64,000 nt of DNA, from contig OZ037769.1 of the NCBI GenBank assembly GCA_964035545.1, positions 376,001-440,000 of the forward strand, given 5' to 3'. Source of the stretch: Bugula neritina (lineage: Eukaryota > Bryozoa > Gymnolaemata > Cheilostomatida > Bugulidae). Made by a program: the position numbers and the translations under genes. The notes below the pieces were generated by a model. It saw only the letters and a list, made by a program, of their open reading frames with translations, searched no databases and was not told the DNA's origin. Positions 4,001 to 41,300 of the stretch are shown in pieces; position 1 is the first letter of the stretch; every line of letters begins with the position of its first letter.

Positions 4001-7000
4001 TTATTTTGTTTATTTTTTAGTAATTTTGCACAAATCATCTACCTAATATATCTAAACACTTTTTAAGAGCTTAATTTGTAATGTGCAAGTGTTATCTTAG
4101 TCTTGAAATTCGTTGTAGCAATTGACAAATTGATTTTTAAACACTTGTAGTTATGTTTTTCTTGCAGGGGGCTGTTTGGGAAACAAGGTTTACAATGTCA
4201 AGGTATGTGACTATATTCACAATGTAGCACTTGCAGTCACATGTCACAATGATACTGTGAGTGTGACATGTACAGTAAGGTGTCATATCTCACTGTGACA
4301 TGTATAGTAAGGTATTACATCTCACTGTGACATGTACAGTAAGGTATCACATCTCACTGTGACATGTACAGTAAGGTATCACATCTCACCGTGACATGTA
4401 CAGTAAGGTATCACATCTCACTGTGACATGTACAGTAAGGTATCACATCTCACTGTGACATGTACAGTAAGGTATCACATCTTGCAATCAGGGGTTGTTC
4501 TCAATAGAATCAATTCACTCTAACTATAAATGTTAAGTAGTTAATGAATGTTATCTATTCTTACGGAAGCTAACCAACAATTCTGAACTAGAATTCAATT
4601 TAGACTCAAAGTATAGATTTTGTATATAAAATATTGATTCAGATTCCATGAAAGATATTCCCAAAGGATGTGAAGTACAATGTTTATAGAAATTTCTAGT
4701 TCCACAAATATTTCTACTGCATTTTTTTTCAATTAGCTTATACAAGCTTACAATAAATAGAGCCAAGTACAAGTGTACAAGTAACAATTTCTAACCATTT
4801 ATCTGTATTTCATTGGTTAGATAAAATATTTTGGTGTATTTAATTTGCTGGTTTATTTCTAGTGTGCGTGTTTGCTGTGCATAGACGGTGCCATGAGTTT
4901 GTCAGTTTTACTTGTCCCGGCACTGATGAAGGCGCCGACTCAGACGTGAGTAAACATAGCCTTATTTCTACAATCTCATAGCCTTCTTTCTACAATCTCA
5001 TAGCCTTCTTTCTACAATCTCATAGCCTTATTTCTACAATCTCATAGCCTTATTTCTACAATCTCATAGCCTTATTTCTACAATCTCATAGCCTTATTTC
5101 TACAATCTCATAGCCTTATTTCTATAATATCATAGCCTTATTTCTACAATCTCATAGCCTTCTTTCTACAATCTCATAGCCTTCTTTCTACAATCTCATA
5201 GCCTTATTTCTAAAATCTCATAGCCTTATTTCTACAATCTCATAGCCTTATTTCTACAATCTCATAGCCTTATTTCTATAATATCATAGCCTTATTTCTA
5301 AAATCTCATAGCCTTCTTTCTACAATCTCATAGCCTTCTTTCTACAATCTCATAGCCTTCTTTCTACAATCTCATAGCCTTATTTCTACAATCTCATAGC
5401 CTTCTTTCTACAATCTCATAGCCTTCTTTCTACAATCTCATAGCCTTATTTCTACAATCTCATAGCCTTATTTCTACAATCTCATAGCCTTATTTCTACA
5501 ATCTCATAGCCTTATTTCTATAATATCATAGCCTTATTTCTACAATCTCATAGCCTTCTTTCTACAATCTCATAGCCTTCTTTCTACAATCTCATAGCCT
5601 TATTTCTAAAATCTCATAGCCTTATTTCTACAATCTCATAGCCTTATTTCTACAATCTCATAGCCTTATTTCTACAATTTCATAGCCTTATTTCTACAAT
5701 CTCATAGCCTTATTTCTATAATATCATAGCCTTATTTTTATAATCTCATAACCTTACTTCCACAATATCATAGCCTGATTTCTATAATATCGTTGCCTTA
5801 TTTTTACAATACTGTAGCCTGATTTTTACACTAGCCGGGTGCTAGGTTTATACTTACCTTTTACTATGGTAACAATGATATAACTCTCACTTTAATGACT
5901 AATCAGTGAACAAGTCACTGAAAAGATGGCTGAGTGAATGTTGAACAATAGTAGTTAATTTGTAATTATCTATGACTATAATTTTCTATATAACATTTAA
6001 TCACTTTAACAAAAAATCAATTTTGATAAAAACAGGCTGGTAGCTATAATGACTAAACAGAATTACTCCACCGACCTCAAATTCAGAACTTACAGACAAC
6101 AAACTATTGTTAGGCTATCTGCTGAATCTATTTATAGATCAATGAATATAGGTCATCTACACTCAAGTAGTCAACTAATTAAACTGAAAGAGTTAATTTC
6201 ACTGTCATCATGTAAACACATGATGACATGAATTATAGATTTAAATGAGGGGATCCTACACGAAGTTAAAACAATTCAACTTTGTCAAACAAAAATTATC
6301 AGTCATCTGATCTGTTATATATATACCTGGTTTGTCCCAGCAAATCCTAGTATAGTATCGACACAAAATATAAAAGCTGAAGTTGAATTTTTTGTCAAAG
6401 TTTGAATAAAACTGTGAAAGGAGTTTAGTTTGTTAATTCAGAGAAAACCGACAGTCGCAAAGAGACTAGACTCCAGCATTAGCTGAGTACACTGGCTTAT
6501 TATATTTAGTAGTGAACACAACTCCTGAATATAAACTGTATATAGTAATATAGTACAATGTACTCATGTACTCCTGTTATTTAAGAAGATAACTCTTATA
6601 GTGATCTCTGCCTGAAACAAATTTTAGAAAAGCATTGCATTACAATGCCAATTTTCTCACTGCTAAAACTGAGCAACTTACAGCTGTTAGCAACTTTATT
6701 GTTTAATATCGTTGTATGTTGCCAGAGTGAAAGATTGTGTTGCTAAGCAGCATGTTTGTTTATGGTTTAATATCTTTGTATGCTGTCTGTGAAACTAACT
6801 CTTTATTTACACTTCAGCAGGTAGGAGAGACGGTCAGGTAAATTAGCAGCAATTAAAACCTACAACCACCTTCTCACAGTTTCTCTCACTCTTTCAATGT
6901 GATAACATCTGGCATACAACTTCTAGCTAGTAGGCTGCCAAATACCTTTACCTGTATTATCCTTGTTATCTTCAAATGTTGTCTGTGTAGGAAAACAAAC

Positions 7001-38300: not shown

Positions 38301-41300
38301 GGGTTAGCTATAATCTAAGTTATTGGCTATTAATAACTTAATGAATAAGATAATGAAACTAAATAGTTGCAAAACAAGAGCTAGCCTTCAGAATAAAGTT
38401 GTATTTAAATTGACTATTAGCACGTTACAAGCTATTACACTATTGACAAGTTGTTAGCAATGATTAATTTGCTTAAGTACCCGTAGCGTACATGTCCGTA
38501 GTATAACTTACTCATTCAACTTAAACCTAAGGAGCTAATCCAAATCACTATTATGTACTAAGTAGATATATTAACATATTATTATTAAAGCAACTTATTC
38601 TTAAATTTCTAATTAAATTAAATTTATCAAGTGCAAACTATAAAAAATGCCAATAAGCAGGGATCAAGCACTCAGAGTGAGAGTAGTAAGAGTAAGAGTA
38701 ATCACTTAATGCTTATGTTATTAAGAAAAGTAATACTAATAGTAATAGTATTAGTATTGGTAATATCATATTGAGTTCAATATCATTACACTTACAGTTT
38801 GAATTTACACATCGCAGTTTACAATATTCAGTATTGACTATTGAATTCAAAATGAATCATTAAATGGTGAATGGCTACAATTTCAATTTGAATTTTAAGT
38901 TGCTGATCGCGGCAATAAAAGTTTTAGTTGAATATAAATTATGGCAATTCAAAACTAAAGTCTAAATACGCAAGTGCAATTTAAACTTAATGCATTAAAA
39001 AGTTATTTACTTAGTTATTTAGTTCTTATTTCCCAATTATCATTAATTTTAAATTATTAATAATAGAAATGTTATGATAAACTTAAAGAGTTACTCGTTA
39101 TCGTTATGATTGGGATTATCATTGTAAGAATTGATAAAACAAAAGAATGAAGCCTTAGAGAAAAATTGACTGAAAGTTATATTGTTTGATAAATATAAAA
39201 AGTTATGAGAAGTTTGGAAAAATACAATGAATACTAACCTGACGAAATAAATGAAAACTAAACCGCTATGCCATCAGATCATTTTCTTGGCAACAAACCG
39301 GATGCGCTACTATACTCTAAATTCTAGAGGTTTCAAGATGACTTTATTTATGAAAACAGAATTAGATTACTGTGTAATTATTTTATACTTACGAACAAAC
39401 AAGATGAAAATATATTTATCGTTGTAAAAAATAAGTTTGAGCAAAATAATGAAATTTAACTAATTTATTTGAGAGTGTAAACAGAAAGCGTTAGCAATTT
39501 CGTTCTCACGTGCTCATACTCAATTTACGGACAATTGTTGCGGACAAAAAATTCGTGAGGTTGAAACACTAAAACAGGAATATCTAAACTTGTACCGCTA
39601 GGAATTAGACATTCAGCACACCAAGAGATTGACAAGCTTTTTTAGAACAGTTTAAGGAAAAAAATATAATCATAATATATGTTTATAAAAAAATTATGCT
39701 ATGTCAAAGTTGAAATGTGTTACCCACTGAATTTATTTTTCAGTGGGTAAAATTTAAAAACTTGTCATTTTTTCAATAAAAAATGCATAATATAGCTTAA
39801 ATATACTAATTTTATAATAAATTAAAATGTTTTTTATTCTGGGACACAGTGAGTTCACATATTTGAAGCATCAGAGAGCTAGACAACATCATTTTTGAAA
39901 ACCTGTCCTTATTTTGCACTGTACTAATTATTTTGAGATGAGCCAGATATGGGAGTAATCTCCCCTGACTAACAGTACATACATACCACTGCTGATAATG
40001 AAGGTAGGAGTAATCTCCCCTGACTAACAGTACATACGTACCACTGCTGATAATGAAGGTAGGAGTAATCCCCCCTGAACTCATTCACCACGTCACCTCC
40101 AAAGTCTGCAGCAGAGTGAGCCGTGTCATAGACACCGTGGAAGTCTACCTACAGTTAGGTGAATAAATCTAGGTCAGCAAATCTAGGTCAACAAAGGGCA
40201 GTGGGCATACTATATCTTTAGGAAGAGAAGTTATAGGGACGGAGAAAAAGAATGAAGGTAGGAAAAGCTGCTAGGGAAGACAGGAAATGAGAAAGACTGA
40301 AAAATGCGAAGTCCTTCTGACAAATGATGAGAGAGAGAAAGATAGGCTATAAGTCAAGGAGAAACACAAGCTGACTTCTTTATCTCAACTAAAAATATCT
40401 GCTGTAAAATACTCAAAGCTGAGATAATAAATAGAATACAAGTAAAGTGTTTCCCGTATGACCTTGAACTTCTAATGCGCTGAGTATCAATAAGCAGACT
40501 CACAGCGGCCATTGTTCTGATGAATCCTTGTCGTATGCCCAGACTGTGCCAGGAGACGTCTGCAACTTGGTGAGAGATAAAGCCGAGCACAAACACTACT
40601 AGTTTCTCTGTTTCCTGTAAGTAAAGAGTGTAAATGGAATCACTGCACAGAACGACTCTCTTCGTGATCAATGCTGAATAAACATAATTCTACCAAAAAC
40701 ATGCATGTACTTTTCTTATAGCAATTTTTCTCAGTGCAAAAATTATAAAACGAATAAAATTGAAAAGGTATATGCAATTATAAGTGGAAACTAATATCTG
40801 ATTTATAGTAAAAAGAAACATAATATGCATATTGACAAGTGAAGTGAATAGGAAAGAAAAGTGTGACGCACCTCCGTCCAGGGGGGTGGGAAGTTGTCAC
40901 GGATATATTGCAGCGTGACGTTAGTAAATGCCGTCCAATGACTGTCTTCGGATGTGACTCTGTATTTACCTTAGCAACAAACATACATGTCCTTAGCAAC
41001 AAACACACATATCCTTAGCAACAAACATACACAACAGAAAACCTTTCGACTTTAGATTCGTGCAACTGCTGCAACAAAAGTTAAGTGAAGGAAGCAACTC
41101 GACTCCTTTTCTACTAAATGTGAATCAAACTTCCACTTACTATTAAAACAGACGCTGCCGTAGTAAGTGTCGGGGTAAGTATTTCCAGCCTGGAAAGCAT
41201 CTTGGTGCTTTAGAATGAGCTGCAAGTAGTTCAGTGAAACATCACATTTCTAGTTGGCGGATTTCTTAGAACGAATTGACTGAGAGTGAATACAACTATT

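Follow-up and report, generated by a model that had tools for sequence, protein, structure and literature searches.

Why should tandem repeats in a bryozoan genome lie across exon-intron junctions, and do they prefer the 5' splice site (donor) to the 3' splice site (acceptor)? This question is raised by a 64,000-nucleotide stretch of Bugula neritina DNA (GCA_964035545.1, contig OZ037769.1, positions 376,001 to 440,000 of the forward strand), hereafter called the window, which is C5:376001-440000 of the searched assembly (215.8 Mb, 295 contigs). The window has a G+C content of about 33%, and its genes encode a PKC (C1_1 and Pkinase exons), a trypsin-like protease, a GPI-phospholipase-D-like protein (minus strand) and a Wnt. 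Such repeats recur across the genome and seem to favour donors over acceptors. The explanation we prefer, to which we give a probability of about 0.6, is that short tandem duplication is roughly blind, that copies crossing a donor are silent and that copies crossing an acceptor are mostly removed; a moderate extra tendency towards donors may exist.

The original prediction placed the donor inside the repeat unit in PKC, the protease and three phospholipase exons, on both strands, and this was confirmed for all five arrays. Tandem Repeats Finder (TRF) and copy-by-copy views gave units of 30, 36, 25, 55 and 20 bp in 2.3-11.3 copies, and the exon end plus GT was seen to recur in the copies. The unit is thus an exon end plus a donor, the exon end expected from homology is the one in the first copy, and the units vary between loci. 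Lengths and sequences are unlike one another across the five arrays, in agreement with the earlier claim of independent events.

In PKC, the C1-domain exon (exon 4; 7530..7638, plus strand; Pfam C1_1 E=6.6e-11, gene finder and homology) ends at the donor AGTG|GTAAGTG after 7638, and a 30-bp array of 11.3 copies covers this donor at 7616..7953 on the plus strand (TRF, copies and frame). Its first copy is the final 23 bases of the exon. GTAAGT is kept by all 11 regular copies and lost in the degenerate last one. Because the unit is in frame and open, splicing from a later donor would lengthen the protein by 10-amino-acid units. The protease exon ending GKTVKKGHWPWQ (23942..24066, plus strand) has the donor GCAG|GTAGG after 24066 and is followed by an exon matching Trypsin (E=5e-57). 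The 36-bp array of 4.5 copies at this donor (24063..24223, plus strand; TRF, copies and frame), which is at exon 3 in the numbering of the original prediction, is a marginal case, since the exonic part of its unit is just GCAG, i.e. 4 bases. Use of its second donor would run into a TAG stop.

The other three arrays lie on the minus strand in the phospholipase-like gene, in which FG-GAP was matched by Pfam and Zn_dep_PLPC fell slightly under its cut-off; the low coordinate of each exon is therefore its donor side. The exon ending FLAV (36937..37045, donor AGCAGT|GTAAGTCC) carries a 25-bp array of 6.2 copies at 36809..36964, including about 14-28 exonic bases, and a later donor would cause a frameshift. 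Across the donor CAGTG|GTACGT of the exon ending SYLHYQQ (40042..40148) lies a 55-bp array of 2.3 copies (39952..40078) with about 37 exonic bases. The exon at 28399..28506 (homology and gene finder; donor GTTACT|GTAAGTAT) carries a 20-bp array of 4.1 copies at 28327..28408 with 10 exonic bases. In the latter two arrays, too, the unit length shifts the frame.

These details bear on the idea that ladders of donors are retained by selection, either because spare donors aid splicing or because they yield isoforms. PKC would suit it, as its units are in frame and open and GTAAGT is kept in the 11 regular copies. However, PKC is the only such case; in the other four of the five, splicing from the second donor would meet a stop codon or shift the frame, and just two of the five periods are multiples of three. 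In a further array described below (L038), GTAAGT is retained in 14 of 20 copies and lost in six, so extra donors decay. Selection for spare donors is hence considered very improbable.

Does the window by itself reveal a preference for donors? Homology was used together with a small gene finder to model the exons, and 37 introns (21.9 kb) were retained with one extra donor at 28399; the "about fifty introns" counted earlier could not be supported. The 108 TRF rows of the window were merged into 48 arrays (score of at least 50, period of at least 9). For the chance test, 26 arrays were moved at random in the 37 introns under two null models, in which arrays either stay within the intron ("inside") or may overrun either intron end by at most one unit ("blind"); the 28399 donor was uncounted and three intron coordinates were off by 1-3 nt. 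Four of the 26 arrays spanned a donor, compared with 2.5 expected (blind null, P = 0.23), so the window alone showed no excess. One array overlapped an acceptor, compared with 2.5 expected. Nine arrays started no more than 60 nt from a donor, where 7.6 (inside, P = 0.27) or 4.5 (blind, P = 0.016) were expected. Taken alone, the window is no proof of a donor effect, and its lack of significance is what plain chance would give in a genome that is rich in minisatellites and has short introns, with no relation to donors.

A random sample of fifteen 10-kb stretches was pooled with the window. One stretch (L045) reads N, which left 140 kb with 38 arrays. Two more donor-spanning arrays were found in it, L038:3623-4021 and L040:3653-3768 (overlap of 6 bases), giving a total of seven in 204 kb. 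The pooled test took in 41 arrays from 85 introns and left out L038:3623 and the 28399 donor, as the next exon is unmodelled. Five donor-spanning arrays were counted against a blind expectation of 4.3. Twelve arrays started at or before position +12 of the donor, against 4.1 expected inside (P = 0.00015) and 6.3 blind (P = 0.0099). On the other side of the intron, eight arrays ended within 12 nt of the acceptor or past it, where 4.1 (inside, P = 0.022) or 6.3 (blind, P = 0.27) were expected. The three pooled acceptor overlaps include a coding repeat in L033, a stretch with a 33-bp in-frame coding repeat of 4.3 copies (L033:3498-3639, VPLDNSDTSLQ units) within a predicted exon. When the units of 85 arrays were scored for splice motifs, 10 reached a donor score of at least 5 compared with 2 of the reversed units, and the acceptor motif gave 2 compared with 0. 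These scores agree in direction with the ladder counts given next, but they are small.

A genome-wide view was obtained by searching for ladders, defined as three copies of the donor consensus word AGGTAAGT, and likewise of the acceptor word TTTTCAGG. The AGGTAAGT ladder gave 1682 matches genome-wide (808 and 874), whereas the word read backwards gave 9 in three places. The 187-fold excess taken from these raw counts was dropped, because the permuted control word GATGAGTA was matched 346 times and its reverse 258 times. Raw matches are misleading here, since 90 of the 100 listed GATGAGTA rows came from one array on chromosome C1; arrays on C1 were therefore counted instead. Among the 100 AGGTAAGT matches listed, which reach C1:33.96 Mb of 35.64 Mb, there were at least 22 arrays, compared with one array each for the composition-matched control words TGAATGGA and GATGAGTA. 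The predicted recurrence across the genome was thus borne out. Ladders on the other chromosomes enter the total count, and the listed matches are those of C1. Along C1, 10 of the listed ladders lie in the first 9 Mb, two at 9-23 Mb and 10 beyond.

The acceptor ladder was far rarer, with 8 matches of TTTTCAGG in the whole genome and none of its reverse. Of 85 ordinary acceptors, two carry TTTTCAGG, and of 85 ordinary donors none carries AGGTAAGT; hence the acceptor word is no rarer at real acceptors than the donor word is at real donors.

Could these ladders belong to one dispersed repeat family carrying AGGTAAGT, or be an assembly artefact? All listed donor-ladder matches come from C1, and the single array behind 90 of 100 listed rows illustrates how one long array inflates raw counts. 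Nevertheless, the listed C1 arrays, at least 22, have unrelated spacers, periods from 12 to about 38 and both orientations, and the genes that supply their first copies differ. Since the units listed for C1 show no relationship to one another, a single dispersed family was rejected there, and we regard this explanation in general as the most remote of those considered.

Do the ladders sit at the ends of exons? For 20 of the 22 listed C1 ladders, the sequence on the 5' side was scored with a home-made exon score trained on about 40 window exons. An exon end at the ladder start was recognised at a score of at least 5 in 14 of 20 ladders; the same threshold was reached by 20 of 116 GTAAGT sites and by 321 of 1500 random positions. 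A score of at least 10 was reached by 9 of 20 ladders, 4 of 116 GTAAGT sites and 126 of 1500 random positions. The ladder score is flattered, since each ladder was given the highest value among its candidate donors, 2.45 on average; scaled accordingly by our arithmetic, the GTAAGT rate at the lower threshold would be about 37% rather than 17%. Two ladders pass this threshold narrowly (L086 at 5.0 and L079 at 5.9). Pfam named four of 10 exon peptides at ladders (phosphofructokinase, caspase, and OATP twice), while the other six had no Pfam match at E <= 0.1. Apart from the weak case L086, the exon-anchored ladders have 1 to 25 exonic bases in the repeat, with the AG mostly fixed by the search word. 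The counts of donor ladders against control words and against the acceptor ladder, together with the exon ends at ladder starts, argue against plain chance, which we now consider very improbable. Unlike in the window alone, the donor effect genome-wide is clear. The predicted excess of arrays at donors over random positions accordingly fails in the window taken alone and holds for the pooled starts and the C1 ladders. Donor-like ladders occur antisense as well, as in an array of GAGTAAGT units opposite a predicted gene (L034:3946-4089).

The original prediction offered two alternatives, namely a process that seeds arrays at donors, or tolerance of arrays there because the first donor wins. The latter fits best, since the donor-spanning rate is near the blind one (5 versus 4.3), the boundaries are scattered and use of the second donor would disrupt the reading frame in most window cases (four of five). 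In such a course of events, short tandem duplications of about 12-60 bp would by chance straddle or touch an exon-intron boundary, and would then expand by ordinary minisatellite slippage or unequal exchange. Judged from homology and frame, the spliceosome would keep the first, exon-proximal donor, which a duplication of this kind spares together with its exon, so that added copies would join the intron and be neutral. Splicing tends to use whichever AG comes first after the branch point. Duplications across an acceptor would place decoy AGs ahead of the true exon and would presumably be mostly removed. The expected outcome is many donor ladders, few acceptor ladders and introns lengthened from the 5' end.

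The former alternative was not demonstrated, as only starts up to +12 exceed the null. Seeding might be directed to donors by U1 or R-loop pausing, or by breaks or template switching near donors during transcription. It would account for the pooled starts at or before +12 (12 versus 4.1 or 6.3) and for the at least 22 consensus ladders against one for each control word, and perfect-consensus donors may be over-represented in ladders, given that AGGTAAGT is found at none of the 85 ordinary donors. On the other hand, donor-spanning arrays are near the blind rate, their left boundaries scatter over 1-37 exonic bases, and array ends in the window crowd acceptors as well. We thus consider directed seeding unlikely, though the strongest of the rivals. 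Its bolder form, in which 5' splice sites and especially strong-consensus donors are minisatellite hotspots in this lineage, coupled to splicing or transcription and lengthening introns from the 5' end, appears slightly more doubtful still. Extra seeding of two- to threefold at donors is possible, and it stays in play because of the pile-up of starts at 0 to +12.

Several observations weigh against blind duplication followed by tolerance. The same pile-up (seven starts at 0 to +12 versus 2.0 blind, P = 0.002, or 4.1 inside, P = 0.07) is not predicted by tolerance alone. Array ends lie 0-12 nt from acceptors in the window in five cases versus 1.9 (inside null, P = 0.02). Acceptor duplications are sometimes tolerated, as indicated by L040:2036-2212 (minus strand), a 44-bp array of four copies over the acceptor TATTAG|TTACCAGTATCTG; its last copy is the authentic one, and the array mirrors the donor ladders at the 3' side. 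Six of the 20 scored ladders had no recognisable exon at their start, and L078, one of the 14 that passed, appears non-exonic by eye. Raw match counts (1682 versus 9, 346 and 258) separate donor and control words less well than array counts do. Finally, the acceptor side was counted genome-wide with the single word TTTTCAGG, and first-donor use was judged from homology and frame.

The age of one array can be addressed by comparison with related exons. None of seven other genomic matches to the PKC exon carried a donor-spanning or acceptor-spanning array (by eye and TRF), so the PKC array is probably derived. The closest match, the PKC paralog L048, has the same exon end position and one donor with no array. 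In L051 an array begins about 15 nt into the intron. The exon of L054 continues past the junction and has no donor at that point. For this one gene, the comparison suggests that the intron after exon 4 is probably older than its array. Similarly, 13 fn3 exons had no array across a donor or acceptor (by eye and TRF). Many fn3-domain exons, which are probably tandem paralogs, are densely clustered at C6:8.03-8.42 Mb and would suit the polarising of arrays by paralog comparison. Thirty kinase loci (L003-L032), mostly on small contigs, were not used; most of them need TAA/TAG read-through, as in ciliates, and the assembly therefore seems to contain ciliate contigs.

The closest known system is that of the lancelet "mirages" (PMC3087553). 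In the parts of the reports considered here, these are minisatellite-like duplications of exon-intron boundaries, both 5' and 3', with length and somatic instability, normal splicing reported as undisturbed and an origin unclear to the authors; the Adh3 units measure 10-72 bp (PMC3087553; PMC3902484). As far as those parts go, the likeness is close: the tandem unit includes the boundary in the five window arrays, L038 and L040, splice signals stand in many copies, and the window units of 20-55 bp in 2.3-11.3 copies fall within the Adh3 size range. Unlike the mirages, which are described there gene by gene and at both boundaries, the arrays here recur over a 216-Mb genome and are apparently donor-biased; at the 3' boundary we found one clear case, L040:2036-2212, and the single acceptor ladder word is rare (8 matches genome-wide). 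Judged by titles and abstract openings, no genome-wide account of mirages or of a donor bias was found in the open library searched.

Introns can also be gained by tandem duplication of AGGT-containing exon segments, according to the portions of two reports considered (PMC4974935; PMC2891723). There as here, tandem duplication across or near splice signals alters gene structure. In that process the intron is new, whereas in PKC, the gene for which this was tested, it pre-exists and is only lengthened: in L048 this exon end and donor are present with no array, so exon 4 does not show a new intron made by duplication. Human introns are reportedly derived from tandem arrays (Zhuo et al. 2007); compared by title only, intron ends lie in tandem arrays in both cases. 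In Caenorhabditis elegans, the minisatellite CeRep25B is found near alternative splicing regions, as the part of that report considered describes (PMC4039745). Minisatellites are thus associated with splice regions in both animals; on the same partial basis, CeRep25B is one repeat family with regulatory motifs, while the arrays here are independent units duplicating donors.

A structure known gene by gene in lancelets thereby becomes a genome-wide natural experiment. If seven per 204 kb held throughout, one animal would carry thousands of tandem donors by extrapolation, and these pose the question of which near-identical donor the spliceosome picks. The donor-acceptor asymmetry would read out the filtering of duplications at either splice site, and a simple route for intron growth without protein change is shown by it. 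If the excess is partly mutational, splice sites would be tied to genome instability.

Other arrays of the window lie close to splice sites as well. Further arrays had been claimed to begin within about 5-50 bases of a donor, and five were seen to start just inside introns. A 39-bp array of 24.4 copies (33209..34164, minus strand) starts at +5 in a phospholipase intron and fills nearly all of it, a 22-bp array of 39.8 copies (4955..5830, plus strand) starts at +9 in PKC intron 3 with the donor outside the array, and two minus-strand arrays start at 42667 (+9) and 32179 (+42, or +30 by another TRF row). The 32-bp array of 6.9 copies in PKC intron 2 (4262..4482, plus strand) starts at +59. Within the 37 modelled introns, the sole array found to overlap an acceptor is a 22-bp array of 2.9 copies (40969..41031, minus strand), which ends on the acceptor with 1 exonic base. 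A 19-bp array of 60 copies occupies 60140-61296, outside the modelled genes of the window, and TG and TA microsatellites are found at 55082-55509.

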